Part shown: in pieces, positions 6,415-28,020 of the stretch
Layout: each line of letters starts with the position of its first letter
Position numbering within the stretch: the first letter of the stretch is position 1
Assembly (NCBI GenBank): GCA_009602725.1
Contig: WELB01000098.1
Location: 131,231 to 159,405 of the forward strand
Source: Spirogloea muscicola
Taxonomy: Eukaryota > Streptophyta > Zygnematophyceae > Spirogloeales > Spirogloeaceae
Direction: 5' to 3'
Length of the DNA: 28,175 nt
Position numbers and translations under genes: made by a program
Notes under the pieces: model-generated
What the model was told of the DNA's origin: nothing
The model's input: the letters and a program-made list of their open reading frames with translations, nothing else
Databases searched by the model: none

Positions 6415-7952
6415 GGGGGCGCTCGTGGCGGCGCGCTGCGGCGGCACCGGCGGGGGGAGGGGCGGCGTATGAAGAGCCGGGTTTGGCTGCAGGCACTCTG
6501 ATCAGCGGCAGCATCGGCTGTTGATCGGCGGCTGACGCCGTGACTGGGCCTGGTGGCGGTTGGAGTGCCCGTCAGGCGTCAGCTCAGCTTTTGTCATATC
6601 GCGCGGTACGCGAGTCCGCTGTTATATTCCGGGAGCTCGTCTTGGACCACCCGTTTATCCACTCTTTGGCACGCTATTCCGCATATAATCTGGCTGGCCC
6701 TCGCAGGTTCTAAAGGATCTTCACATGCAAAGGCTGGCTTTGAGTAACATGGACGCATAAGAGCTTGCTGCTGGATGATACTTGCAAAGGCAAAGGGGCT
6801 GGACTGTCGAGCAACTTCATGTAATTTCCAAGCTTGTGACAGGCCGCTGCCCATCTGAAGGACAGGTTGCTGCTGCATACATTGCTAGATTCCCCCCAAC
6901 TCTGACAACCTCACACAGCTTACTCTGTAAATCTTATCAGAAGTTTCAGTTGCCTTCTCATGACCTTAGTAAATACTGTTCAGGCCCTCTGACTCTGGGG
7001 CAATATGAACAGGACCAGAATAGTCATGAATCTGACGTGTTACTAACAGCACCCCTCAGCCCACTCTCACCTCCACAAATGGCGATATTCTCTGTCGTGC
7101 CATTCTGCCATTTTGCTAGCAGCAAGAGAGGGCGAGCAAAGACGTACATCACATAGAAGCATTGAAGTTTGCAACAATTCAAGCGCGTTTATTGGCAGAA
7201 GAAGTGGCTTGATCAAACGTTGTGCCTGCTTGACGCAACCTTCTATGGCTACGGGCAAGTGATATGCAATCAGTTCGCACCTCAGCCAGCTGCAGGATCA
7301 AAGCGGGCTCTGGTAATGCAAAGCATGGCATGCCGCGTCAGGACCAGTTCATACAGGATTCAAGCTGCACACATCTGGTCGGCCCCTTCAAGTGCTCATT
7401 TTGACCTGCGCTAGTATAGCAGGGGCAATCTCAACTTTGGCGCCTGGCTGTGTCCTCACACATCTTAGCATGACGACATTTCGTGGACTACTTCTCAAGC
7501 GTGTCCACCACAATGCCGGCCAAACGTCAAACTTATTGTAAATCTGAAAATCAGAAAATCAAGTCAGAGTATACAAAGATTTACAAGTGCAAATAACTGA
7601 TTTTTTTCTCATACTTGATGTTAAGGCTGAGGACCTTGCTGCTATACTTGTTGCTATCCACCTTCGAGAAGTTGCTTAACTGGGCGCAATAGATAAAGGA
7701 TCTAGGAGTGCTGCATCAGAGCCTTTGAGGCCTATATTTGAGGCCACTGAGTGCAACCCAAGACTCTATGCAATGGCTTCTCCCAGGGCCCACCTTGGGA
7801 GTGTACTTAAGTCCGACCTGAAGGAGCACTCAGATTACGCAACTCATATGCCAGACTGAGATTCCAGCTACAACATGCAAGACACATAGGTGCTTCTGCT
7901 TCAGGCCAATCCACAAGCGGTGGCTTGCCTCAGCTCCTGAGCCGAATGTACT
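6415..7952. other. intergenic spacer: mannanase promoter side and 3' side of the oxygenase gene
   Basis: Both flanking genes are on the minus strand, so this holds the 3' UTR of the oxygenase and the promoter of the mannanase. GC is high near 6415-6470 and falls sharply beyond it. A TGTAA motif on the minus strand (7581-7585), the usual green-algal poly(A) signal, is a possible end of the oxygenase transcript. No convincing gene, repeat or RNA is visible. Confidence 0.5.
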
Positions 7953-10900: not shown

Positions 10901-12090
10901 GACGGATGTTGAAATTGACAAGCATTGAACAACAGGCTTAAGGCAACCGCTCTCAGGTCAACCGCTGCCTCAACATCAGCTAGGGCAATTTCTGAAGATG
11001 CCATACCTGGACTCGAACCAAGCGTTTCTTTGCCATGACTCCAACCGAACGAGTATCTATACAAGTGGAGCACGACCCAATAATGAGTGGCCGGAAGAAT
11101 GTGACACCTAGGCGAAAGCAGCTCAGGAGCAGTGGAGAAAACAAGTATGACAACATTCACTGACACCTTGCTTGGTAATGATGAGATGAGTACGCAATCG
11201 GAGTAGGTGGCTGACTTGCTGCCTGGATCCTCCAGCTTTGCTTTCACATCTTCTGGGAGAGCAGCAACCCTGGACAGAAGACATGTGGACCCCTGTCAAA
11301 TCATGAAGGGCTCTCCTACACGTACTGCTTACTGTCTCTTTACAATGATCAGTTACACGACAAAGAGAGATTAAGCTGACTGACCTGTAACATATGCAGA
11401 AACTCACGATGGCATGGGTGCTGTGAGGAGAGTACCAGACTGACTGATAGTTTTCAAGTCTTTCGCATTGATGATAGTGCATCACAGGGAAGGTCGGTCA
11501 ATGAGTTGCATATTTACTGCTGGGTCAATTGCAGGAGACTCATCCGCAGACTGCTATAGCTCGGGACCTGCAATGCTCGTGTAGCGCACATTAGCAAGAC
11601 AGAGAGAAGCGTGTGATGAGCAGCTCAGATGAGCTAAGCTGTACACGCGACCGCCAGCGCAGTAGCACATGCAACATATGCAGAACATATCAAATATTCT
11701 GAGCCAATGTACCTTGTATGTCAGATTTTTGAACTGGCTATTATATCCGTTAGAGGTAGTTTACAAGCTGCAGACCATGCCATGTGGGCTCACCCCAGAG
11801 ACGGTCAGAATGCCGAGGCCGTCCGGCCCGTACGCGGCCTCAATGGCCTCCGTCAAGTCGTGAGAGTCGTCCTGCAATTGCAGTGATGAGATGAGGACGG
11901 TCAGGAGCCAAGGCCACACTGCAGCTCTGCTCGGAGATTGGCCAGGAGCGCCGATCACCGCGCGGTGGCCGCGACAAGCTCAGGGACGAAATAGACGCGG
12001 CTGCGAAGCGACGCATGGGAGGCCGACCAGGAGGTCTACGTATGCCACGTCCACGACCGCAGCCGTCGCCGCGGCCGGCGAGGCCCCCAT
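7953..12090 (-). CDS. 2-oxoglutarate/Fe(II)-dependent oxygenase, uncharacterised plant-type family
   Basis: Complete 341-aa protein in 17 exons: 12090-12028, 11871-11794, 11567-11518, 11269-11216, 11056-11007, 10725-10653, 10510-10449, 10274-10206, 10046-10013, 9941-9873, 9683-9646, 9373-9273, 8985-8890, 8793-8734, 8549-8542, 8368-8323, 8027-7953; every junction keeps phase. Start MGASPAAATAAVVDVAYVDLL; stop at 7953-7955. It matches a plant 2OG-oxygenase family of unknown substrate in order: AAYGPDGLGIL, ALPEDVKAKLEDPGS, FGWSHGKE, GSYYANPL, RYPSYCRPNIWP, LGKLIVDVG, THKARCLYYFP, CEWHKDHGSLTGLTAA, DPCCGLYVENR, IPADSIAFQMGE, LHSGGLLWATPHYVK, VSRSTFAVFMQPQW. Iron ligands are H-K-D in WHKDHG and the His of ATPH; the 2OG-binding Arg is in RSTF. 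Two donors use GTCAGC (after exons 4 and 9). The 34-bp exon 10046-10013 is the least certain. Confidence 0.92.
8542..8549 (-). other. 8-nt microexon of the oxygenase gene
   Basis: Reading on the minus strand, CCTCAATG lies between an acceptor (...TTCTGTCAG) and an excellent donor (GTAAGTG). It adds Pro-Gln-Trp(first two bases) between FMQ of the previous exon and DEPMN of the next, restoring the conserved F-M-Q-P-x-W-D-E block. Joining the neighbours directly shifts the frame into a stop at once (GGA TGA). Confidence 0.8.
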
Positions 12091-12440
12091 GCCCGGCAGC
12101 CAGGAATCAGGCGGGGCTCGCCGCAGACGCGGTCCAGAGGCGGCGCGCGGCTTGCTCCGCCACCTGCGGCGACGCACAAGGGCTGGCCACGACGGCGGCG
12201 CAGGCGCTGGCGGCGCGCCAAACGCTGGCGGCGGCGACGGCGCGGCGGGAGATCGCTGTTTTGAAGTTTTTAGCGCGCTACTAGGAGACGAGTTACGAGG
12301 GATTATGTACCAACTAATACTGGCAATATCCTAGCGGTCGAAGGGGACAGCAGGAGAGCATGAGTGATGCAATTTGTGAAGGCTCCCGTCCATTCTTTCT
12401 GGGTGGCCAATCACACCCATAGCCCTCTACTGGAAAGACT
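12091..12440. other. GC-rich 5' flank of the oxygenase gene
   Basis: Up to about 12255 the sequence is very GC-rich, as around the other first exons here, so it is probably 5' UTR and core promoter of the minus-strand oxygenase. Beyond that it becomes AT-richer and leads into the repeat region. The open frames on both strands show no recognisable domain. Confidence 0.5.
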
Positions 12441-12556
12441 TGCCTGAGTGAAGTAACTCAGTGAGAAAGGGCTCGCTCATTGAGGACAGGGGCTTGGGAA
12501 GCCATTAAAAAAAAATGAACAAAGTATGTGACCTGCCTGAGTGGAGTAACTCAGTG
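12441..12556 (-). repeat. hairpin mini-repeat copy with 23-bp flanking direct repeats
   Basis: A divergent minus-strand copy of the hairpin repeat (12464-12533: GGGCTCGCTCATTGAGGA, then a decayed hairpin, an A-tract and ATGAACAAAGTA) lies between direct repeats 12441-12463 and 12534-12556. These are identical except for one A/G difference. Confidence 0.7.
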
Positions 12557-13143
12557 GACGCCATCACCGTCGCACCCTGGACATTGTGGGTGTACAACCT
12601 GGCGGAGGCCCACGAGCCTTGGTTGATGTGGTGATGACGGAGGCATACAAGACTTCCGCTTTGACGCACATTGCTGGCCACGCAGTGGGAGGTGCTGAGC
12701 AGAAAAAGCTCCGACACTACTCAGACTACCCCCGCAGTGACCACCTCCTCCCGGCCGCAATCGACACTTTCGGCTGCTTGGGTCCTCGCTTCCATACCCT
12801 ACTCGAGAACATAGCGAGTCTGGGATATGCACGACGCGAGGATATGCTCCCAGCCCAGATGGGTATGCCGGCAGCCTATCTGTCATTTCTGCGACGTCGA
12901 GTGTCAACCTGTCTGCAACGAACTCAGGCGTATGCTCTGCATCAGAAAGCTGGTCGAGCCTTAGCTGCTGGCACAAGAGCTAGTCAATTGCCGTCCGGTA
13001 TTCGAGCGTCAGCTAGCGACCTCTATGTGCTGACTCGTGGTTACTGAGCGGGTCAGCTTAGCAGCAGGTGACGTACATTTGTCCAATGTGCTTGCCTTTG
13101 TACTTGGCCACACATGGCCTCCCCATCTCTTAATATACACGCA
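12550..13143 (+). mobile_element. 5'-truncated retroelement fragment, best-preserved LTRGY-type copy
   Basis: An open frame from about 12550 to the stop at 13045-13047 encodes LDIVGVQPGGG, VDVVMTEAYKTSA, HYSDYPRSDHLLPAAIDTFG, YLSFLRRRVS and SDLYVLTRGY. The form (V-D-V-V.T.., then Lys/Arg-Tyr, then a hydrophobic IDT-G block, then a basic Leu/Arg/Gln helix) resembles the C-terminus that follows the reverse transcriptase in LINE-type ORFs. That assignment is from family knowledge; no reverse transcriptase is present. A 3' tail with TTTGTACTTGGCCACACATG follows (about 13095-13143) and is shared with the copies ending at 16443 and 14016 and with a solo tail at 19485. Confidence 0.6.
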
Positions 13144-13202
13144 TTTTCCTTTTTTGGGCTGGCTTTCCAGCCCCCTATCCTCAATGGGCGAGCACTTTCT
13201 CT
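13144..13202 (+). repeat. hairpin mini-repeat, A type
   Basis: TTTTTTGGGCTGG, short loop, CCAGCC, then CTCAATGGGCGAGCACTTTC. It abuts the tail of the preceding retroelement fragment. Confidence 0.75.
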
Positions 13203-13279
13203 GGTATATGCTCCTCCGACATAGCTTCTTCAGGCCCCTTCGTAGCTGCTAAGCCCTTTCTGGCCATTGTCCATTCTTT

Positions 13280-13350
13280 TGAAGAAAGTGCTCGCCCATT
13301 GAGAATAGGGGCTGGAACAACCAGCCCGAAAAAGAATGAACAGAGTACGA
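13280..13350 (-). repeat. hairpin mini-repeat, A type
   Basis: Full-length inverted copy: GAAGAAAGTGCTCGCCCATT, GAGAATAGGGGCTGG, ACAA loop, CCAGCCCGAAAAAGAATGAA, CAGAGTAC. Confidence 0.8.
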
Positions 13351-13367
13351 GAAGGGGGCCAGGGGAA

Positions 13368-13454
13368 GCCCATTGAGGATAGGGGCTGGACAAGCCAGCC
13401 CCTATTCTCAGAAGCCATTCTTTTTGGGTTGGCTTTGCCAGCCCCTCTTCTCCA
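13368..13454. repeat. two partial hairpin mini-repeats in opposite orientation
   Basis: A minus-strand half copy (CCCATTGAGGATAGGGGCTGG...CCAGCC, 13371-13400) is followed by a plus-strand copy (CATTCTTTTTGGGTTGG...CCAGCCCC, 13417-13446). Confidence 0.6.
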
Positions 13455-13496
13455 GCTAGCTACTCGGACTTGCATCTCCTGACTAGAGGTTACTGA
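13454..13496 (+). mobile_element. retroelement C-terminal stub (LTRGY type)
   Basis: Only the last codons remain: ASYSDLHLLTRGY and stop (13494-13496), joined directly to a hairpin repeat. A second, decayed stub with two in-frame stops lies at about 13640-13680. Confidence 0.55.
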
Positions 13497-13548
13497 GCGT
13501 TTCCTGGCTGATGTCTTAGATTTAGTCGTTCGCACTCAGGCTCCCTCA

Positions 13549-13610
13549 GAGAAGAAAGTGCTCGCCCATTGAGAATAGGGGCTGGAAAAACCAGCCCGAA
13601 AAAGACTGTA
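13549..13610 (-). repeat. hairpin mini-repeat, A type
   Basis: Near-complete copy on the minus strand: AGAAGAAAGTGCTCGCCCAT, then GGGGCTGG, AAAAA loop, CCAGCCCG. Confidence 0.75.
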
Positions 13611-13742
13611 GTCAATCTGGCCGCGCTTCTTTTCTTTCCGGCAGCTAGTCGGATTTGATTTCTTCACTCCTAATTACTGACTGGTCCATCCTCCCCATCT
13701 CTCACATAGCATCTTCAGCCCCCTTCGTAGCTGCTTAGCGTT

Positions 13743-13866
13743 TTAGCACACAGAGAAACAAAGCAGCTACGAAGCACTCAGTAACCCCTGCTAAGCAGCC
13801 GCAGATCAGAAGAAAGTGCTCGCCCATTGAAAATAGGGGCTGGAAAAGCCAGCCCAAAGAATCAAC
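13743..13866 (-). mobile_element. retroelement C-terminal stub (LSRGY type) carrying a hairpin repeat
   Basis: On the minus strand a hairpin repeat (13809-13866) is followed at once by TGATCTGCGGCTGCTTAGCA and GGGGTTACTGA, the LRLLSRGY-stop end (stop 13778-13780), and its 3' UTR down to about 13743. The 3' end of the hairpin repeat is again ...GCACTTTCTTC. Confidence 0.55.
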
Positions 13867-13875
13867 AAAAACGAG

Positions 13876-14215
13876 AAGTGCATAAGAAACAAATGTAGGC
13901 CAAATGGCCAAGTACGAAGGCAAGCACATCTATAGATCTACAGAACCTACTATTTGGCCAAGTACGAAGGCAAGCACATCTATAGATCTACAGAACCTAC
14001 AGCAGATTGACCCGCTCAATAACCACGGGTCAAAACATAAAGGTCACTAATCGATGCATGAATACTAGATGCCAGAAACGAGCCCTTCTGCCACCAACTA
14101 GAGCTCGCCCAGCTTTCTGGTGCAAGGCACTAGCCTGAGCACGCTGCAAACAGGCCGAAACTCGTCATCGCAAGAGCGACAGATATGCAGCTGGCAAGCC
14201 CATCTCAGCCGGAAA
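13876..14215 (-). mobile_element. retroelement fragment (LTRGY type) with duplicated tail
   Basis: Minus-strand remnant encoding, with frameshifts, GLPAAYLSLLR, RVSACLQRAQASALHQ, KAGRALVG and ASISDLYVLTRGY (stop 14016-14018). The 3' tail continues to about 13876 and contains the tandem duplication listed separately. Inactive pseudogene fragment. Confidence 0.6.
13905..14000. repeat. tandem duplication, period 50 bp, two copies
   Basis: The 46 bp at 13905-13950 (TGGCCAAGTACGAAGGCAAG ... CAGAACCTAC) recur exactly at 13955-14000. The unit is part of the tail of the minus-strand retroelement fragment. Confidence 0.9.
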
Positions 14216-14277
14216 GAGAAGGGGGCCAGGGGATGCGCTAAGAAAAACAAGCACACAGAGAAATAGCTACGGATCAC

Positions 14278-14460
14278 TCAGTAACCCCTGCTAAGCAGCC
14301 TCAGGTCGGAGGCGCTAGGCTCCTGGGTCCCCTGGCCAGAGCCAGAGGCAGCAGCGACACAAGAGCTCGCCCATAGAAGAGAGGGGCTGGCAGAAGCCAG
14401 CCAAAAAAGAATGGACAAAGCAGCGAGGGCTCTGCCGGCCCGCAGGTGCAGCGCGCGGAA
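14278..14460 (-). mobile_element. retroelement fragment (LSRGY type) interrupted by a hairpin repeat
   Basis: The minus strand encodes LHLRAGRALAA, then after the insertion AASGSGQGT and SDLRLLSRGY with stop at 14278-14280. The insertion occupies 14358-14418. Without it and one copy of the 8-bp repeat, the sequence matches the uninterrupted copy at 21361-21743 across the site. Confidence 0.65.
14350..14426 (-). mobile_element. 61-bp hairpin mini-element with 8-bp target-site duplication
   Basis: The insert 14358-14418 reads on the minus strand TTGTCCATTCTTTTTTGG, hairpin GGCTGG-CTTCTG-CCAGCC, CCTCTCTTCTATGGGCGAGC, TCTTGTG. It is bounded by AGCAGCGA (forward strand) at 14350-14357 and again at 14419-14426. 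The empty site, with a single AGCAGCGA, is seen at the matching position of the copy ending at 21743. The element has no coding capacity and no clear terminal inverted repeats; the inverted repeat is internal. Confidence 0.85.
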
Positions 14461-14494
14461 CTGAGCGTTCCCTGGCCACCAGTCAATCTGGCGC

Positions 14495-14760
14495 ATGTCC
14501 TGACTAGAGGTTACTGAGCGTTCCCTGGCTGATGTCTTAGTCCTAGTCGTTTGCACTCAGGCTCCCTCAGACCTTGTCCATTCCTTTGGGCTGGCCCTTC
14601 CCAGCCACCAGTCAATCTGGCCGCGCTTCTTCTTTCCCTGGCTGATGTCTTAGTCCTAGTTCTTCTTCTTTCTTCAGGAGCCTAGCGTCTCTGACCTGAG
14701 GCTGCTTAGCAGGGGTTACTGAGTATCCCGTAGCTGCTTTGTTTCTTGTGTGCTTGTTTT
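14495..14760 (+). mobile_element. two retroelement C-terminal stubs with 3' UTRs and a hairpin repeat
   Basis: Stub 1 ends CTGACTAGAGGTTACTGA (LTRGY, stop 14515-14517). Stub 2 at 14676-14722 reads PSVSDLRLLSRGY-stop. Between them lie GTTCCCTGGCTGATGTCTTA (also found near 13500) and a hairpin repeat of a third variant (14575-14620, CTTTGGGCTGG...CCAGCCACCAGTCAATCTGG). Confidence 0.5.
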
Positions 14761-15465
14761 ACTTAGCGCTTCCCCTGGCCCCCTTCTCGTCCTATGTTGA
14801 TTTCTTGGGGCTGGCTTTTCCAGCCCCTATTCTTAGTCCTAGTCGTTCGCACTCAGGCTCCCTCAGACCTTGTCCATTTCTTTGGGCTGGCCTTTCCCAG
14901 CCACCAGTCAACCTGGCCGCGCTTCTTCTTATCCTCAATGGGCGAGCCCTTTCTTTTTAGCGCTTCCCCTGGCCCCCTTCTCGTACTCTGTTCATTCTTT
15001 TTCGGGCTGGTTGTTCCAGCCCCTTTTCTTTCTTCGTACTCCGGCTCCTTCAGACCTTGTCCATTCTCAATGGGCGAGCACTTTCTTCCATTCCTTAGGG
15101 CTGGCCTTTCCCTTTCGTTTTTTTGTAAATGTACTTTTCCCCCCAGCCACCAGTCAATCTGGCCGCGCTTCCCCCTTCTCGTACTCTGTTCATTCTTTTT
15201 TGAGCTGGCTTTTTCAGCCCCTATCCTCAACGGGCGAGCACTTTCTGCCAGCACGAAGGTGCAGCGCGCGGGCCATAAGCGATACGGCCAGGCGCATACG
15301 ATAGATACATTGCGCCAGCGACCCGGCTTTAGGCCCCTCCGTCATTTGGCCTCTTCGAGCCTTTACTTAGCGCTTCCCCTGGCCCCCTTCTCGTACTCTG
15401 TTCATTCTTTTTCGGGCTGGTTGTTCCAGCCCCTATTCTCAATGGGCGAGCACTTTCTTCTTTGT
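14760..15465 (+). repeat. cluster of at least six hairpin mini-repeats in the same orientation
   Basis: Copies at about 14795-14836, 14874-14954, 14991-15034, 15060-15170 (split), 15189-15246 and 15401-15460. Several are preceded by the same leader, TTAGCGCTTCCCCTGGCCCC followed by CTTCTCGTACTCTG, which also forms the 3' UTR of the retroelement fragment at 21361-21820. The long open frames here (up to 413 codons from 14794) are translations of the repeat. Confidence 0.75.
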
Positions 15466-15524
15466 CAATTCTTTGCGGGCTGGCTTTTCACAGCCCTTGC
15501 CCCCATCGGGAGTGCCACTTCTTC
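15466..15524 (+). repeat. hairpin mini-repeat, B type
   Basis: Variant with the hairpin CGGGCTGG...CAGCCC and a different right half: TTGCCCCCATCGGGAGTGCC, ACTTCTTC. Related B copies lie at 20249-20312 and 20941-21004. Confidence 0.7.
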
Positions 15525-15780
15525 AATGCCGCCAAATCGCATCACCGTGGAGTGGATAAAGACCGGGCGGGCGGCGGGGCGGTCGAATGCCGGGACGCGC
15601 CTCCGGAGGCTGTCCGGTTCGCGGAGACGGGGGGCCACTCACGCAGTCCATTCAGAGACTTCCCGAGGCAGTTGCCGCAAATGGGAAGGCTGGATGACGG
15701 CGTCATTTCCGGACATGGTCAGTGCGACGCTTGAGCTCGTTGAGCTGCTGTGTTGCCGGACTCTTAGCCGGGGCGGGCGT

Positions 15781-15813
<33 letters not shown>

Positions 15814-16091
15814 GCAGCGGCGGCGGCGGCGGCGAAGGCCAGAGCTGGCCTGACAGCACGAGTCCCCCAGCCCAGGGCGTCGAGCTCCCTTGTACAGTCG
15901 CAGGCAGGCCAGGCTGCGACGTCCCTGGTGCTGGCGCTGAAGCCATTGGCGGCGTGCCGGGCCGGCCGATGCTGCTCTGCCGAGCGGCCGCGAGGGCGCG
16001 CCGCGGCTTTGGCACGCACGGGCTGCTGCCATTGAGGGCTAGGCCACAGGCGGGCTCCAGCTACCGGAAGTGTGGAAGCAACATGATGCCA
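15525..16091. other. GC-rich island with a CGG trinucleotide tract
   Basis: About 570 bp of high GC between repeats, with an interrupted (CGG)n run at 15782-15834. Open frames exist on both strands (poly-Ala in +, Ala-, Arg- or Pro-rich in -), but none has a recognisable domain and the composition alone would create them. It could be a displaced GC-rich first exon or promoter like those of the host genes; I cannot assign it. Confidence 0.35.
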
Positions 16092-16545
16092 TGGTAAAAC
16101 GCCAGCTCCGACACTACTCTGACTACCCCCGCAGTGATCACCTCCTACCAGCGGCAATCGACACTTTCGGCTGCATGGGCCCTCGCTTCCACACCTTATG
16201 GAGAATTTTGCAAGTTTGGGATATGTTCGACGTGAGGATATGCTTCCAGCTTAGATGGGCATGCCGGCAGCCTATTTGTCATTCTTGCGTCGTCAAGTGT
16301 CAGCTTGTCGGCAGCGAGCTCAGGCTCATGCGTTGCATCAGAAAGCTGGTCGAGCTTTAGCTGGTAACTCAAGAGCTTGTCAATTGCCGTCCGGTATTCG
16401 GGCATCAGTTAGCGACCTCTATGTGCTGACTCGTGGTTACTGAGCGGGTCAGCTTAGCAGCAGGTGACGAACAATTATCCAATGTGCTTGCCTTTGTACT
16501 TGGCCACTTATGGCCCTCCATCTCTTCATACACGCATTTTCTACT
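16092..16545 (+). mobile_element. retroelement fragment (LTRGY type), frameshifted
   Basis: Nearly the same sequence as the copy at 12550-13143. QLRHYSDYPRSDHLLPAAID and TFGCMGPRFHTL read in one frame to about 16200. MGMPAAYLSFLRRQVSACRQ and SVSDLYVLTRGY continue in another (stop 16441-16443), so it is a pseudogene. The same tail (TGCTTGCCTTTGTACTTGGC) follows. Confidence 0.6.
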
Positions 16546-16557
16546 GGAAGAGTATTA

Positions 16558-16702
16558 CTGTCTTTGGGCTGGCCTCACAGCCGTTGCCTTAATTTGAGAG
16601 AGCTCTTTCATTCTTTCCTGCCCTCGCCCCCTTGGGAAGAGTTTCTTATTCTTTCTAGCTGCAAGCTGCTCCAACTTGCGACTGCTGACTCGGGGGTACT
16701 GA
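16558..16702 (+). mobile_element. degenerate hairpin repeat and retroelement C-terminal stub
   Basis: TTTGGGCTGGCCTCACAGCC (16561-16580) is a worn hairpin repeat. The codons before 16702 read LAASCSNLRLLTRGY-stop (stop 16700-16702). Confidence 0.5.
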
Positions 16703-17563
16703 GCAGGCATCCTTAGTGATCTCTGCACTTCCCGGCTCAAGTGGACCTTGTTTGACACATTGTGGTCTGAAATCTCACAGCCCTTGCCCCCTTGCATAAG
16801 AGCTGCTTGTCTCCTAGTCAACAACCACACATTGGAGCTCTACAGCTCGCTCATCGTAAGGTAAAATCCTTTAAAACAAGAGGACTTCCTCTCAGGCCTT
16901 CCAGAACTACTCGTCCTGTCACCTTGCAGCAGCCAACTCCTGCACATGTAAAGGATCCTTGTGCTCTAGGTAATTGCCTAGATTCAACCTCTTGCAGCTG
17001 TCTCGTATCGCTGGCTCTGCTCCCTGATGCCCAGCTTGAGCACCACGATGTCATCAGCAGGGCGGAGGCACCCGACCCTGCCTGGCGCTCCCTTTGCCCG
17101 GCAGGACTTTGCACTTCCACAGCCCAGTCGGAGCTTCGATTATGTTGTGCTTACTGGATTATTGCCCGGAAAGACTTGATTCCTGAGTGGGACGAGTGGG
17201 ACCAACGTCCAACTCGTGGACCAAAGTGGACCACCAGAGCAGGTACAATTCAGGTCAACCACCTGAGCATTGCCTATTGCACCTATGAAAGCAATTAATA
17301 ACAAGAGAGAGAGAATTTCAAATGGTACTAGAAAATCTGTTAACAAATGAATTCCTATATAACGGAGTTCCTAGATTGTCACGCCCTGTGCCACAGAAAC
17401 AATGGCCACAGAGGAAGAACTGTGTGCAGCCATGAAGTGCATGTGCTCTGCACAGCTGTGGCGTAATACTGGCCTCCCTTTGGGAGCAGCATTATGCAGC
17501 CCACGCTCCTTGAGCAGAAACGCCTTAGAGAGGACAGAGAGCGCTAACAGCGAATACCTCCAG
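16703..17563. other. intergenic spacer, 3' side of the fibrillin gene
   Basis: Contains the 3' UTR of the minus-strand fibrillin gene. A 168-codon plus-strand frame (16792-17298) has no recognisable motif, an unremarkable composition, and no supporting splice or family signal, so I do not call it a gene. No RNA gene seen. Confidence 0.4.
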
Positions 17564-19269
17564 TCACGCTATCCGATACTCAGGATCGTCCATTACAAGA
17601 ACAAACAGGTTGCTGCGGTTGCCTCTTGAGATTCTGCAAGAGGAGCAGTTCTTCAGCTTGATCACAGTGAATCTGTTCAAAGCTGCCCTTCTACTCAATC
17701 ATCATACAAAATGAGGACCATCGTTTGCCAGCCAGTGCAGACACCAGAGCGCGATTCCCTGAGCGAAGAAGGTCAACTGCGAGGCAGGTGGGCTGCAGCT
17801 GCAAAAGCTGCGGCTGACTTCCTTGATGACTGCTTGTACAGTACTAGTAAGAACTAGACCTTTGCTGATTGCGGACACTTGAGGTCGTGGTGACATGCTG
17901 GACAGGCAGACTCCCCTCACCTCAAGTCTTTGTCAACATATGTAATCTCCAGCTCGCCTCGGGCTCTCTCTGGAGCCTTCACAGGGACCTACAACAGGCG
18001 ACGAGCAAACACCATGGTCATAGTGCCAGGGCCTAGGAAATCAGACTCTAGATCAAGATTCAAAACAAGTGCAGAAGTACGTGACACAAGTCCAACTACA
18101 AGTTTCCGAAGTGAGATGGGCTGACGAGGAGATATACTCACAAGACCCAGGATCTTGAAGACAGTGAACTGCACAGCGACCTTCCGCGAGGACATGGCGG
18201 TCAGCTTCGCCTTTACCTGCCAACAAGCCAACACCAACCTTTCAATCAGGCACGCAATCGAACAATGAATCTGTGGGGCTTTCCAAAAAGGAAAAAAAAA
18301 AAAAGGTAATACTGCAAGGCCAGGATCCCCATTGAGCACCTCGGCAGCAACTAACCTGGTTGAAGAAAGGCCAAGTTTCAAGGTTCTGGGCCTGCATCGT
18401 GGCTGTGTCAATGACTTGGTAGACGGGCCCCGCCGGGCGCAGCAGCTTGGGTTTCTGCCCAGATAAGCCGTTGACATCAGAGCAGATTGCATGCTTTCAG
18501 CATGACACGAGCGGAGACTGAACCTCGTTTCAAGACCCTGGGTACCCATGGCATTCTGCACCTGCAGCAGGCCCCTTCGGAAGAGCCCGCTGTGCGGGAG
18601 CAAGGGGCTGCGGCGTGGCAACCTTGGTCCCGAGGGTGCTCTCGGAGGTCGTGTACACCAGCCGCCAGCGGCCATTGAGGTCAGGGGACTTGAGGGTGTC
18701 CTTCGTGGGGCTCATGCTCTCCAGCCTGGTCGCGAGCTGCACCTCGAGCGCCCGCGGCAGACGACGAAAGGATCGCGACCCAAGTAAGCAGGCGTCGTGC
18801 TGCCCAGATGGCCATGCACTTTGAGCGCCACAGCAGTATGGGCCAGAGCACGGCGGCAGGGGCCCGCCATGGAGGACGGGGTGTGGGACGGGCCTGGGGA
18901 CCTCGTCAACGCGGCGCTGGTCCTCGGGCGAGGCGGCGGCGCCGCGGTCCAGCGGCGCGACGGCGGCCAGGAGCTCGTCCTTGAGCCGCCGCCGCTGCTC
19001 GACGCCGCCGGAGAAGAGCTTGAAGACGGCGCGCGCCCCCTGCGGTCCTCGCCCACGACGACCAGCCTGAGCGTGGGGGAGCTGACGGCGGGCTGCCGTT
19101 AGGAAAGCGGCGACGAAGCGGCGCGCGACGGGCTCGCCGGGAGAAGAGGCGCCTCACCTGCAGCGAGGCGGCCTGCCCGGGCGTCGCCACCGCGGCGGCG
19201 CGGCCCGGGAGCTCGGCAGCGTGCGGCCGCGGCGGCGGCGGCGGCCCCGGTGGCGGCGGCGGCGGCCAT
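17564..19269 (-). CDS. fibrillin / plastid-lipid-associated protein (PAP family)
   Basis: Plastid lipocalin-like protein of plastoglobules and thylakoids that binds or organises lipids and isoprenoids. Seven exons: 19269-19158, 19092-18902, 18736-18623, 18454-18356, 18216-18142, 17988-17921, 17633-17564; 242 aa, all phases consistent. The start ATG (19267-19269) opens an Ala/Arg-rich sequence typical of an algal chloroplast transit peptide. Then come AVFKLFSGGVEQRRRLKDEL, LATRLESMSPT, LNGRWRLVYTTSESTLG (the diagnostic PAP N-terminal block), AGPVYQVIDT, QNLETWPFFNQ, VAVQFTVFKILGLVPVKAP, ARGELEITYVDKDLRISRGN and the C-terminal FVLVMDDPEYRIA with stop 17564-17566. The length fits small fibrillins; I cannot assign a subgroup. 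The second exon's acceptor (after 19093) was chosen by phase and its pyrimidine tract. An intron carries an A-rich run on the plus strand near 18289-18304. Confidence 0.9.
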
Positions 19270-19484
19270 GGCGTCCGGCTGGACCAGCTGGGCGCCCGAA
19301 GAGGCGGAGTCGGTGAAGTGGAGGCAGCTGCGAAGCACTCCTTGGCCACTGGGTGCTCAAGATCCCGAATTGAAAGAAAGCGGGCTGTGTCAGGAGCGGA
19401 GATTCAATGACGATCAGATGAGGAGGTGACAGTGGCTCGACCAAACACCTAACCCCTTGCTTACCTTGGGAGTACCACTTCTTC
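19270..19484. promoter_or_regulatory. 5' flank of the fibrillin gene
   Basis: The short stretch upstream of the start codon is GC-rich to about 19330 and then less so. It must contain the core promoter and 5' UTR, since retroelement tail sequence begins at about 19485. No confident TATA box or other motif. Confidence 0.35.
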
Positions 19485-19545
19485 TTTGTACTTGGCCACA
19501 CATCGCCTCCCCATCTCTTGATACACACGCATTCTTCTTCAGCAG
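19485..19545 (+). mobile_element. solo 3' tail of the LTRGY-type retroelement
   Basis: TTTGTACTTGGCCACACATC, GCCTCCCCATCTCTTGATAC, ACACGCATTC closely match the tails after 13095 and 16490 but have no coding part. Confidence 0.6.
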
Positions 19546-19825
19546 ACGTAAGAAGTGGCTTGCAGCCGGATGCAGACGGAAAGTGTGGCAACAGTGACTG
19601 CTGTTCAACATTAGTTTCTCGAACCCCGCCCTCTTTCGTCTTTCATTCATCCACTTCGTGTTGGAATCGGAGGCTCCGCCGAAGCGTCTACCGGCCACGT
19701 CGCGCGTCGGTGCGCCACGTGGCTCTCTCCTCTGCCACGTCGGCCTGCGCGTCCGGCCAGGGCGCGGGGAGCTCCTGGAAGCACACCTGGTCAGGCCGCC
19801 GCAGCAGAGAAAGAGAGGAGAGAAG
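19546..19825. other. unassigned GC-rich stretch
   Basis: GC-rich in its second half and containing several copies of GCCACGT (about 19694-19740). Frames are open on both strands but show no recognisable domain. Nothing further can be supported. Confidence 0.3.
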
Positions 19826-19947
19826 GAGAAAGGGCTCGCCCATTGAGGATATGGGCTGGAACAGCATCTGTTGGAGCTCTTTGGATTTTGTCCATTCTTT
19901 TCCGGCTTCTGCCAGCCCCTCTTTTCTATGGGCGAGCACATTCCTTC
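19826..19947. repeat. two hairpin mini-repeats, head to head
   Basis: A minus-strand copy, AAAGGGCTCGCCCATTGAGG then ATATGGGCTGG (19828-19861), is followed by a plus-strand copy, TTGTCCATTCTTTTCCGG, CCAGCCCCTCTTTTCTATGG, GCGAGCAC (19888-19940). Confidence 0.6.
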
Positions 19948-19987
19948 ATACTTTCTTTGAACAGCCAGCCCAAAAACAGAACGAGCA

Positions 19988-20074
19988 GAGAGAAAGGAGA
20001 AAGTGCTCGCCCATTGAGAATAGGGGCTGGAACAACCAGCCCGAAAAAGAATGAACAGAGTACGAGAGAAAGGA
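19988..20074 (-). mobile_element. hairpin mini-repeat, A type, with 11-bp flanking direct repeats
   Basis: A well-preserved 65-bp copy (19999-20063) lies between GAGAGAAAGGA at 19988-19998 and the same 11 bases at 20064-20074. Its outer end reads CAGAGTAC, which on the element strand gives a left terminus of GTACTCTGTTCATTC. Confidence 0.65.
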
Positions 20075-20110
20075 CTACACTACAGAGCACAAGACGATGC
20101 AGAGGGAAGC

Positions 20111-20205
20111 TCAGTACCCGCGAGTGAGCAACAGCAGATCAGAGTAGCTCGCTGCAGGGAAAGAGGCATTCTGCGGCGATGCATGGCATCCTGGTGGAGG
20201 CTGGC
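20111..20205 (-). mobile_element. retroelement C-terminal stub, internally deleted
   Basis: On the minus strand RMPLSLQRA (like RMRLAISLQRS of the copy at 21361) runs almost directly into TYSDLLLLTRGY and a stop at 20111-20113. The intervening 25-30 codons are missing and a frame change occurs between the two parts. Confidence 0.5.
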
Positions 20206-20248
20206 TTCGTGGTGGCAACGGAGCACTCCGGCGTCATGCCGCTCCAGG

Positions 20249-20312
20249 AAAGAAGAAGTGGCACTCCCAATGGGGGCAAGGGCTGCGAAAAGCCAGCCCA
20301 AAAAGAGTTGAC
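20249..20312 (-). repeat. hairpin mini-repeat, B type
   Basis: AAGAAGTGGCACTCCCAATG, GGGGCAAGGGCTGCGAAAAG, CCAGCCCAAAAAGAG. Almost identical to the copy at 20941-21004. Confidence 0.75.
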
Positions 20313-20334
20313 GAAGGTTCGAAGGGGCCGAAAA

Positions 20335-20490
20335 AGCGTGGAGAAAGGGCCGACGGTCTCCACGCTTGACGCGTTGACCTGGTGGCCACCCCACAGGCCG
20401 GCGGGCCACTTCTCCTTGACGTGGTGACCACCGACGCATACGACCGTTCCCACCCAGTCCAATGTGTTGAGATAGGTTATTCGTTAGTGC
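20335..20490 (+). mobile_element. retroelement internal fragment
   Basis: Encodes, with one in-frame stop, RVDLVATPQAGGPLLLDVVT then TDAYDRSHPVQCVEIGYSL. This matches LDIVGVQPGGGPRALVDVVM then TEAYKTS of the copy at 12550. It breaks off at about 20490. Confidence 0.5.
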
Positions 20491-20940
20491 CTCATTAGTG
20501 CTAACTGAATGACCAGGATCCGGAGTGTTACCGTCACTCAGGTGGGCCTCAGCCAATGATGCCGATGATGAAGCTTGGGGCGCAGACGATGGAGACGCGG
20601 TGCTCCTGAAGGGAGTGCCGCGCTCCTTCCTCGCCTTCTTCCCCACGGCAAAGACAGGCTTCCTGGCCATGGTGGTGACGGCAGCAGGGTCCGGCAGGAA
20701 GCAGGCCGGCAGCGGCTTAAGGCAGGCGGCGTGGGCGCTGACAAGCAAGCGGCAGTGGGGGTGAAAGGAGCTCAGTGGCTCCCGTTGGCAATGTGTGCTT
20801 ATGCCCACTACTCACCCCCTTTATTGATAGAAAGAATAAACAACACGGAGCACAATGGGTCCCGGCGGGTCAGCCTGCCGGAGGCCTGAGGGGGCCGGCT
20901 GCAGAGCCGGCCCAAAGGTGTCCGTTAAGCTAGCCGGGCA
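20491..20940. other. unassigned stretch between retroelement pieces
   Basis: Contains a GC-rich part (20535-20765) with open frames on both strands, for example a minus-strand frame reading MARKPVFAVGKKARKERGTP. I recognise no family. It may be a piece of another element or of a former exon. Confidence 0.3.
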
Positions 20941-21004
20941 GAAGAAGTGGCACTCCCAATGGGGGGCAAGGGCTGCGAAAAGCCAGCCCAAAAAGAATTC
21001 ACAA
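20941..21004 (-). repeat. hairpin mini-repeat, B type
   Basis: GAAGAAGTGGCACTCCCAAT, GGGGGGCAAGGGCTGCGAAA, AGCCAGCCCAAAAAGAATTC. Followed, as at 20313, by ACAAAGGTTC and AGGGGCC. Confidence 0.75.
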
Positions 21005-21360
21005 AGGTTCAGAGGGGCCTAAGAGCGGTGAGCAGCTACAAAGGGGCCTGAGGATGCAATGGTAAAACAGGGGGAGGATGGATCACTCAATAAGTACGAG
21101 TGAGGAGCCTCAGATCCGACAGACTAGCTGCCGGGAAGCTATCACCCTGACGAAAGCCAGAGCCCGCAGCGAGAGCACGGCCAGCTCGCAGATGCAGAGT
21201 GTAAGGCACAGGTGTGAGAACAATCTCACACGTGTGCTCTGCCTACGTGTCAGCCCTGACGGTCCAGACAAGCTGCCCCCGGAAGTGACAGGCGCTTCCA
21301 TAAGTGGGACACTCTAGGTGAGATAAAGCATAACGAAAGGAGCTAATGCCTACATTCTAA
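21005..21360. other. unassigned stretch within the repeat region
   Basis: No recognisable reading frame or RNA. ATGGTAAAAC (21058-21067) also occurs just upstream of the fragment at 16092, hinting that part of this is retroelement-derived. Confidence 0.3.
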
Positions 21361-21820
21361 CACAATGTGCCACCAAGGCCGGGTATGCGGTCGCTCGGGC
21401 ATAAGAGCTAAACTACGCCGACCATCCGCGGGATGACGAGTTCTTCCCGTTGGCAATCGACACCCACGGGGCGCTGGGCGCTCGGTGGCTCGAGTTGCTC
21501 AACCAGCTCGCCCGCCACGCCATCGCCCGTCGCTTCCATGGGGAGCCGGTGGACTTCCCTGCAGCTGGGTCGCTAGCGCAAGTCTACCGTATGCGCCTGG
21601 CCATCTCGCTGCAGCGGTCTATGGCCCGCGCGCTACACCTTCGTGCCGGCCGCGCACTCGCTGCTGCCTCTGGCTCTGGCCAGGGGACCCACTTCCAGGC
21701 GCCTAGCCTCTCTGATTTGCGGCTGCTTAGCAGGGGTTACTGAGTGATTCGTAGCAGCTATGCTTCGTTTTGTGCTTGCTTTCCTTAGCGCTTCCCCTGG
21801 CCCCCCTACTCGAACTTTGT
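21361..21820 (+). mobile_element. retroelement fragment, best-preserved LSRGY-type copy with 3' UTR
   Basis: Reads KAGYAVARA, one in-frame stop, then ELNYADHPRDDEFFPLAIDT, HGALGARWLELLNQLARHAI, VYRMRLAISLQRSMARALHL, RAGRALAAASGSG and SDLRLLSRGY with stop 21741-21743. The 3' UTR has TTCCTTAGCGCTTCCCCTGG and runs directly into a hairpin repeat. This copy provides the empty site for the insertion at 14358-14418. Confidence 0.6.
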
Positions 21821-21880
21821 TCATTCTTTTTAGGGCTGGCTTGTCCAGCCCCTCTCCTCAAGGGGCGAAGCTCTTTCTTT
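21821..21880 (+). repeat. hairpin mini-repeat, A type
   Basis: TTCATTCTTTTTAGGGCTGG, CTTGT loop, CCAGCCCCTCTCCTCAAGGG, GCGAAGCTC. It lies between the converging retroelement fragments (+) ending at 21820 and (-) ending at about 21895. Confidence 0.75.
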
Positions 21881-21889
21881 CTTATTCTG

Positions 21890-22275
21890 CCGAGACCCGT
21901 AGGCAGCAGCCATGGCGCGGCCAGCGCGCGCGTGGACCGCATGAGCCCAAGAGCGCTGGAGCGAGGCCGCCAGCCTCATCCGAAATACCTGAGCGAGGGA
22001 GCCAGCAGCATCAAAGCCTGGCGAACCCGGCCGTCTCTCGGTGGCCTGCCGGGCAAGTTGCTGGAGGAGATCCAACCAGCCACTGCCAAAGGCCCCGTGA
22101 ACGTCAATGGCGAGGGCCGCGAAGATATCGCCGGGAGGGTGGTCCGCGTACTTGCGCTCCTTTTTCCGAGCCGCCAAAGCGACCTCGTGCCCGGCGAGCG
22201 TCGCCGACTTTGCAGGGTTGGCGGAGTCGACGCAATCTGCAGTCACCACAGCAGAGAGAAAGAGGGCTTCAGAAG
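21890..22275 (-). mobile_element. retroelement fragment, minus strand, open frame
   Basis: An uninterrupted frame encodes VVTADCVDSANPAKSATLAG, HEVALAARKKERKYADHPPG, DIFAALAIDVHGAFGSGWLD, LLQQLARQATERR, VFRMRLAASLQRSWAHAVHA and RAGRAMAAAYGSRQ. It aligns with the fragments at 12550 and 21361 but lacks the terminal LSRGY. Its frame runs on into the hairpin repeats at both ends, which explains the 193-codon open frame. Confidence 0.6.
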
Positions 22276-22276
22276 A

Positions 22277-22336
22277 AGAAAGGGCTCGCCCGTTGAGGAT
22301 AGGGGCTGGAAAAGCCAGCCCTGAAAAGAATGAACA
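22277..22336 (-). repeat. hairpin mini-repeat, A type
   Basis: GAAAGGGCTCGCCCGTTGAG, GATAGGGGCTGG, AAAA loop, CCAGCCCTGAAAAGAATGAA, CAAAGTAC. Inverted relative to the copy at 21821-21880, with the retroelement fragment between them. Confidence 0.75.
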
Positions 22337-22359
22337 AAGTACAAAAAGCAATCCAAACG

Positions 22360-22503
22360 ACGCTTCCAGGAGAGGGCCGTGGCTGTGAGAGGCCAGCCCA
22401 AAGAAAGTCAAGATAAGAAGTGAGCTCTCCGAAGCGGCAGATCTGTCGTTTCTGCGAGGTCGTGTGTCAGCCTATTTGCAGCGAGCTCAAGCTCATGCTT
22501 TCA
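22360..22503. mobile_element. degenerate hairpin repeat and retroelement helix fragment
   Basis: A worn minus-strand B-type repeat (GGCTGTGAGAGGCCAGCCCA, 22381-22400) is followed on the plus strand by codons for ADLSFLRGRVSAYLQRAQAH (22440-22499), the basic helix seen in YLSFLRRRVS of other copies. Confidence 0.5.
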
Positions 22504-26400: not shown

Positions 26401-28020
26401 TAAGACAATATGGGGAAAGATTAAATTGCACGTAGCATGTGCAAACAAAGCTCTGCATGCAATGGTGCCTGGTATCAAGGGTTAGGGTTCAGAAAGAGGA
26501 GTGTCAATACCAGTAGATCGAAATAGATTGCCTCATTTGAAGCCTGGGCTGTGCCAGCTGTCCTCGTCTGGTTGCCCAGGTCGCTGGACGCCACAACGAC
26601 AGCGATCAGTTCGTGCATGTTGTTGCCCAGGTGCTGTAAAGACCCAGGCGCCAGGTTCTCCACGCGGTCGTTCTGGAGTTGGCACAAGCAGCGTGAGCTC
26701 ACTCAATATGTATATGCTCACAGTCAGTCTTCTGAGAGTTCACAAATGATGCAAATAGACACTTTCATCTGTTGAAAGTTGGTGATTCTTGAGGCAGCAG
26801 AATTTGTGATACCATATGAACGTGCTCACGATGCGACAAGCAGCTCCCAGTTTGAGCTTCTGAGCTACACTGGAGGTAGTTTCACAAAGTCAAGGCCTGA
26901 GAGGCCGGCGACGTCACGGTAAACCTGGAAGTCTGTCGCAGACTTGATAACGCCGCTGGTGAAGATGTCCTGCACACAGACAATGCCATTGCTCGTCCTG
27001 ATACAGCTCCTAAGTCCGAGCGGTTTTGAGCAGAGCCAAGGTATGGCCTTGTGTCCTCCACTACAAGGTCCATAAGATTGGTAATGTGGGAATCAAAAGA
27101 ACAGTGCAGATGTCAGTATAAAAGTTGTCCGCCGGCGGACTGCCGGGCTGAGGCAGATGCGTCTGCACCCGACCTGAGCAGGCAGCAAGGCTGTTGGATG
27201 CGGCGCCACCTCCTGAAACTTCTTGAGAAGCCAGCTGCTCGGCCCCGCCTGCACGTCAAAACTAGGCACGTCTCAGGTCCTGGTGTTGGGCTTATTCAAC
27301 ATTTCAAGAACGTTAAGCACACAACAAGTGGCATTTACATGTTTTACATGTTTGGTTTCTTGGTAATTGAAGACGACTTGTAACTGAAGTTCCAAGGCAG
27401 CTGGAGCAAAGAGCGAGAGGACAGGCCAGGGGGCAAGCGTACAGTTGGCTTTGTTTAGAGATGTGCTTTGGAAGTGATAGTGGGTGCAGCAGGGCCAGGC
27501 TGTGTGTCCACCTGGAAGATGGCGGACCGGCCACCCACGCCCATGGCCTCGAGGTCAATCGCCGCCTTGATGACGTGCCTCCACGGGTGCTGCGCCATGG
27601 CAAGGCCGCATCCGCACGAGCAGCGAGGGACGGGAAAGGGTTGAGTACTTGTGCTGGAGCTGGCGGTGGAGCTCAAGTAGAAGACCTCTGCTTGTCGTCA
27701 ACAGACGCGGGTTTCAGTTTCTCCCTCTGACACAGCATGAGACAGGAGCTGGGACCAAGGAGCGGCAATAGGATCCGATCAGGCGGCCTCTGAGGACAAT
27801 GTAAAATTATGATATACTCCAAGCTCGCACCTGCGTGACAAACGCATGGGAGCCAAGGAGGCCCTCCTCCTCGCCGGTGTTGAAAAGAAAGATAACAGCA
27901 TTGTGGCAGCCATTGTCATTGCCATCGGTGGCCCGCCAGAACCAGTCCGGCTGTTGGCTGGCAGCTCGCAGAAGCTCCAGCATCACAGCGACGTTGGAGC
28001 TGCAGTCCCCAGCTCCTGGC
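23471..28020 (-). CDS. ER-membrane M28 zinc metallopeptidase (ERMP1-like), 5' end outside window
   Basis: Membrane-bound M28 aminopeptidase-type protein of the ER. Exons: 28020-27831, 27589-27512, 27248-27174, 26969-26886, about 26768-26744, 26672-26511, 26308-25810, an unresolved piece, 25513-25394, 25086-24977, 24754-24642, 24376-23965, 23784-23471 (stop 23471-23473). The peptidase part shows PGAGDCSSNVAVMLE (zinc Asp), FLFNTGEEEGLLGSHAF (catalytic and zinc Glu), AIDLEAMGVGG, TSGVIKSATDFQVYRD and GSLQHLGNN. About eight transmembrane segments follow (for example ALALLLTLVPWL, WLWLAVLMAG, AMVGVALPIVL, GNVTIAVLLATY, LALAFGLLVTL). The lumenal C-terminal domain carries SAFVCGRDRNPDFVTYAVKY, then GVNDWHIIQF and FGKSTSPYNLAF, as in plant homologues. 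The start codon and the first zinc ligand (H-x-D) lie to the right of the window. Exon 26768-26744 and the 25809-25514 interval are uncertain. Confidence 0.9.

Follow-up and report, generated by a model that had tools for sequence, protein, structure and literature searches.

Results

The insertion and its target site

The window, by which we mean the whole 28,175-nucleotide stretch of the Spirogloea muscicola genome analyzed here, carries 61 inserted bp at 14358–14418, with the word AGCAGCGA on both sides. The two copies of this word, to which no strand is assigned, lie at 14350–14357 and 14419–14426, the first established by reading the sequence and by an empty-site search. The A at 14419 can be assigned to element or target, and the duplication measures 8 bp, or 7 bp when its last T is counted with the element. 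The insert is a LINE 3′ end in minus-strand orientation: the 14358 side holds its 3′ terminus, with GGGCGAGCTC and a TTGTG tail, and the 14418 side holds the 5′ terminus, at which the copy is truncated. The sequence that received it is itself LINE-derived: the flank at 14265–14349 (minus strand) is a C-terminal coding/3′UTR remnant of an older LINE copy (I17, paralogue comparison and empty-site search), and the opposite flank at 14427–14465 (minus strand) continues the same target sequence, as judged by a by-eye alignment against 21600–21657.

Elsewhere in the window AGCAGCGA occurs at 27619 and, as TCGCTGCT, at 21658–21665 on the plus strand, where word and empty-site searches find it once in an uninterrupted paralogous LINE copy; downstream of that copy lies a related LINE 3′ end (21815–21877, plus strand, from 3′-end variants). 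An earlier note, made from the letters of the window alone, had described a duplicated 8-bp word with 61 bp between its copies and a single word at the empty paralogue, and this description stands; the empty site had been placed as ending at 21743, which is wrong by about 78 bases. The note had also asked for filled and empty paralogues to be compared. The empty 43-bp site, composed of 10 nt, TCGCTGCT and G[C/G]CTCTGGCTCTGGCCAGGGGACCC, occurs at 29 distinct places, of which 28 lie among the fetched loci and one is the window copy, with overlapping loci counted once. The same pattern rings at the right-hand junction of filled copies, and these hits were left uncounted. Since the uninterrupted site is present in paralogues, the 8-bp repeat is a true target-site duplication, and the discrete insertion proposed in the note is confirmed.

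The filled form was found in at least three places (the window, C265 and C41) among the fetched loci and scored matches of this genome of 471 contigs. These filled copies are alike around the insert over at least 2,989 bp at 99.9% identity and over at least 3,538 bp at 99.6%, and because of this common block we count them as one insertion that was duplicated later. The block is a nest of LINE ends of 3.0–3.5 kb that spans 12552–16089 in the window and recurs at loci L133 and L134 with 99.6–99.9% identity; in L133 its left side abuts a run of N. Close to the insert, the window also holds an open frame from the C-terminus of a related LINE, covering the endonuclease region (12550–13047, plus strand, from protein alignment), and a related LINE 3′ end of a second subfamily with the stem GGGCTGG..CCAGCCC (13284–13345, minus strand, from D2, 3′-end variants and fold). 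Two more types of repeat that end in a hairpin, but whose 3′ ends differ, occur at 15458–15521 and 14569–14629 (variants v4 and v5), and these are possibly further LINE subfamilies.

One fixed end and one ragged end

The hairpin repeat to which the insert belongs is abundant, as the note had said: the 153-Mb genome contains 230 exact copies of a 35-mer, 118 of a 55-mer and 287 of a 20-mer from the 3′ end, and the reversed controls of all three give 0 matches. A 106-bp query returned at least 46 matches (the best 40 of 1,333 candidates scored), most of which stop close to the limits of a 59-bp core at about 100% identity, a match length that arises because the query, the window copy, is itself cut there. 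Read on the minus strand, the core runs into a short tail on its 3′ side; upstream of it, many copies have longer shared sequence reaching back to a LINE coding region.

For the ends of the element we used 121 distinct copies, comprising 100 of the 230 places of the 35-mer, further matches of the 106-bp query and copies at the same loci. The copies were chosen by the 35-mer, which starts beside the fold base, and the counts of 5′ breakpoints therefore cover positions upstream of it only. The 3′ end is fixed: in 101 of the 121 copies an exact GGGCGAGC lies no more than 30 nt past the 35-mer. For the 20 in which it is absent, inspection by eye shows small changes in roughly half and an end at this point or earlier in roughly half. 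The 5′ end is ragged. Breakpoints range from 0 to more than 290 nt, and in local alignment 24 copies reach at least 290 nt, including 21 with an identity of 80% or higher; some of the local alignments are poor and over-extended, for example those of L027, L063 and L088, which are cut at the fold by eye. Binned by 6 nt going upstream from the 35-mer, breakpoints number 18, 6, 8, 5 and 5, and the next 3 nt hold 6. Among the 18 in the first bin, inspection by eye shows that L026 and L065 carry internal changes and that L012 and L077 are ambiguous, lying in the 3′UTR of another subfamily; 14–16 of the 121 breakpoints are thus placed within 6 nt at the fold base.

More than half of the sample, 73 of 121 copies, extends 5′ of the fold by over 32 nt into a common 3′UTR, and several copies reach a LINE C-terminus. 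This continuation past the 5′ edge led us to reject a stand-alone 61-bp element, and the note's view that the sequence moved on its own is not supported. One end is fixed, the other is ragged and long copies enter a LINE, which is the pattern left by 5′-truncated LINE copies. The note had proposed to align all genome copies with their flanks; in the sample used here this gives a consistent 3′ end and, among short copies, direct repeats above the shuffled level, but not a consistent 5′ end.

Six copies (L012, L023, L059, L083, L096 and L124) lie immediately upstream of an 18–21 nt remnant, ending in TCTCTTCTATGGGCGAGC, of a further copy, which suggests a preferred point of nested insertion in older 3′ ends.

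Direct repeats flank other copies as well. In 37 short copies the 5′ flank, taken up to the breakpoint, was compared with the 30 nt that follow GGGCGAGC; the longest direct repeat averages 5.11 nt, versus 3.94 nt when the partners are shuffled, with 0 of 1000 shuffles as high (highest 4.53); copies with N, without GGGCGAGC or of longer extent were excluded, as were L026 and L065. Repeats of at least 6 nt are present in 13 of the 37 (3.9 in shuffles) and of at least 7 nt in 8 (1.6 in shuffles), and 24 of the 37 have none of 6 nt or more. The best repeats, of 6–11 nt, differ from copy to copy, and together with the 8 bp at the window site they give the variable duplication lengths seen in 5′-truncated LINEs. 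An earlier version of the test with rougher breakpoints was weaker, with a mean of 5.8 nt versus 4.59 nt in 36 copies and repeats of at least 6 nt in 17 of the 36 versus 6.6 (highest of 500 shuffles, 15). Among the 22 long LINE copies, likely duplications were read by eye in L139 (GACATTAG), L143 (TTGTTCC) and L148 (GCTCTGC), and in several others no clear duplication was seen by eye; L148 adjoins the same AGCAGCGAGGGCTCTGC target word.

The parent LINE

A query with the C-terminal LINE protein returned at least 112 matches in the genome (the best 112 of 21,078 candidates scored). Long copies continue into a coding frame for a reverse transcriptase and a likely restriction-like endonuclease (RLE). 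In the long copy L131, a single frame of 1350 amino acids matches Pfam RVT_1 at an E value of 8.4e-16, and its best matches among solved structures in the PDB are R2 retrotransposon proteins (E 7.2e-7 to 1.1e-6). The reverse transcriptase was read in L131, whose 3′ end belongs to a sister subfamily of the window insert by comparison of 3′-end variants. The L131 frame stops about 123 bp before the 3′ end of the element, and the 3′UTR ends in the same kind of hairpin.

In the endonuclease region, Pfam yielded nothing significant (best E 2.5), and the PDB yielded no match. Alignment A3, which includes the L131 C-terminus, contains KX2KY and a conserved Asp, with KX2HY in the window fragment; the KX2KY motif is known from RLE LINEs according to the available part of PMC5678591. 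The LINE C-terminus also contains C, C, H and C residues, with a spacing read as CX1CX12HX3C. For N-terminal zinc fingers, C2H2 matches were obtained only below the cut-off (E 0.097–0.4).

The predicted 3′ fold

The earlier note had described an internal stem as the only structure of the insert. The stem is there, as an inner hairpin GGCTGGC-TTCT-GCCAGCC at 14385–14402 (minus strand, sequence and fold prediction), but it forms part of a larger predicted 3′-terminal fold with an outer stem. The 3′ arm of that outer stem, AUGGGCGAG in the RNA, was read off the sequence at 14366–14374, and its 5′ arm, UUUGUCCAU in the RNA, lies at 14411–14419, where breakpoints and fold prediction put the truncation of this copy at the base of the stem (both on the minus strand). 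For the 57-nt end the prediction gives the outer stem around a 7-bp hairpin at −23.5 kcal/mol (z −4.7), and five other ends, hand-picked as intact, give the same architecture, with z from −2.9 to −5.0 over all six.

In alignment A2 (the L131 end together with 14 of the 25 ends of alignment A1, some of them trimmed, all 14 hand-picked because their outer stem was intact), 91.5% of cells are paired, versus 34–53% when the structure is slid and 91.2% when shuffled, and 0 pairs are changed on both sides in these 15 selected ends. RNAalifold on the 25 poorly registered ends of A1 returned 3 pairs, all outside the inner hairpin. Because pairing is no better than in shuffles and covariation is absent, the fold is plausible and conserved in sequence but not proven by compensatory change. 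The 3′-terminal fold probably recruits the reverse transcriptase in the model set out below.

Discussion

We are confident that the 61-bp insert is a dead-on-arrival, severely 5′-truncated LINE copy, which landed in an older LINE of the same kind, inside its C-terminal coding region. Target-primed reverse transcription begins at the RNA 3′ end, and an early abort inserts the 3′ end only, as is established for LINEs. The full LINE RNA would end in the 3′ fold, an 8–9 bp outer stem around the 7-bp hairpin, followed by a short, mostly pyrimidine tail. We infer that the fold would serve as the recognition signal and that the LINE protein, acting as an endonuclease, would nick the target, with reverse transcription primed there from the RNA 3′ end. 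Synthesis would have halted just past the copied fold, and joining of the second strand would have produced the 8-bp duplication. The note knew of no described family like this one; an undescribed kind of element is not supported, given the 5′-truncated LINE signature and the long copies that encode a reverse transcriptase.

The excess of breakpoints at the fold base goes beyond a smooth truncation curve and, as a mild anomaly, counts against simple truncation. It is also the observation, at 14–16 of 121 copies, that recommends a headless micro-SINE, in which a free RNA of about 57 nt, consisting of the 3′ fold only and either processed or self-transcribed, was moved in trans by the LINE protein; that the remaining unit is exactly one stable fold (z −4.7) points the same way. 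Pausing of the reverse transcriptase or T-rich microhomology could, however, explain the excess, in that a stop at or after a strong fold, together with T-rich microhomology at TTTGTCC, would be expected to yield the same pattern, and the remaining breakpoints form a continuum. A SINE has a promoter-bearing 5′ head and two fixed ends; here one end is ragged, and searches found 0 tRNA genes in the window and 0 Rfam families in window positions 12000–22500. We consider this origin of the insert very improbable. That the 57-nt fold alone is a sufficient mobile RNA, carried in trans by the LINE protein as a short transcript or processed 3′ fragment, is likewise unlikely; were it so, the fold would be the smallest retroposon, a SINE without a head, and the excess at the fold base would be its trace.

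The 8-bp duplication at the window site would suit a tiny DNA transposon, either a MITE or an intron-generating, introner-like element, that makes duplications of this length. MITEs have terminal inverted repeats and two fixed ends. The 61 bp, as the note had observed from the sequence, have no terminal inverted repeat, one end is ragged, which contradicts this class outright, and the best repeats of 6–11 nt vary between copies; we give this reading almost no weight. Hardly any more can be said for a chance 8-bp repeat within a larger rearrangement, the outcome that the note itself had named as refuting it. In its favor, repeats are densely nested in this region and the block around the site occurs at three places, but the uninterrupted site in 29 places contradicts this explanation.

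Truncated LINEs, stem-loops in their 3′ tails and, in green algae, arrays built of nested LINE 3′ ends have all been published before. As far as the accessible portions of these papers go, the preferred reading of a truncated LINE copy fits PMC3747384 on truncation and stem-loops, PMC4176376 on tail binding and PMC8226300 on nested arrays. The first, in the portion available, treats 5′ truncation as a common feature of LINEs and reports 3′ stem-loops for the stringent types. Known 5′-truncated LINEs resemble the present copies in their fixed 3′ end, ragged 5′ end, variable duplications and long copies encoding a reverse transcriptase, whereas the 61 bp here fall below the range of 100–1,000 bp given in the published text available. 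With RLE-encoding LINEs such as R2, NeSL, Utopia and relatives the present element shares the single frame, the reverse transcriptase, R2 proteins as the best PDB match and the KX2KY motif given in the excerpt of PMC5678591; unlike them, the copies seen here are not confined to a single fixed target, and the knuckle reads as CX1CX12HX3C rather than their CX2-3CX7-8HX4C.

UnaL2 is another LINE with a stringent-type 3′ tail. In ZfL2 the LINE protein binds the stem-loop of the 3′ tail (PMC4176376, in part), and the present element shares such a stem-loop, here known as a predicted fold; those LINEs, in contrast, are placed in the L2 clade in the same portion of that source. Zepp of Chlorella and Coccomyxa inserts into existing copies and builds arrays mainly of 3′ ends through 5′ truncation, according to the accessible text of PMC8226300, which cites Higashiyama 1997. 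The nested insertion into older copies and the 3′-end arrays are features in common with our locus, whereas Zepp is placed among the L1 LINEs in that text and the element here is R2-like and likely RLE-encoding. The SINEX families of Chlamydomonas have 3′ ends in common with LINEs of that green alga, as given in the available part of PMC3747384; unlike these, the present copies have no SINE head, and their breakpoints vary.

On the truncation reading the finding resolves into an ordinary, if unusually short, product of LINE copying, and shows how short a LINE copy can get with a clean duplication still present. It also indicates that what is probably a green alga carries an R2-like LINE whose 3′ end is structured. 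A ribosomal protein uL3 encoded at one LINE-bearing locus has plant ribosomes as its best matches and a SufE domain gene lies at that locus too, which suggests Viridiplantae and probably a green alga; a search for the RuBisCO large subunit gave 0 matches and so no plastid anchor. Insertions as tiny as this one are easily taken for new families.

Some of the long copies have structures of their own. Two of the 22, L131 (670–6123) and L132 (385–5835), are units of about 5,451 bp that are 99.98% identical to each other and carry 947-bp terminal inverted repeats, with the LINE 3′ end at both ends; the other 20 lack these. Gene conversion may have spread such a unit as a composite, or the unit may itself be a mobile inverted repeat. 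At two loci the target DNA to the left and right of the copy is itself in inverted orientation: in L132 the inverted repeat extends into the flanks, and in L043 the left flank is, by eye, an imperfect reverse complement of the right one. Finally, the LINE-bearing locus L120 contains a frame with a SufE domain and a frame for ribosomal protein uL3, at 1763–2587 and 6659–7390.
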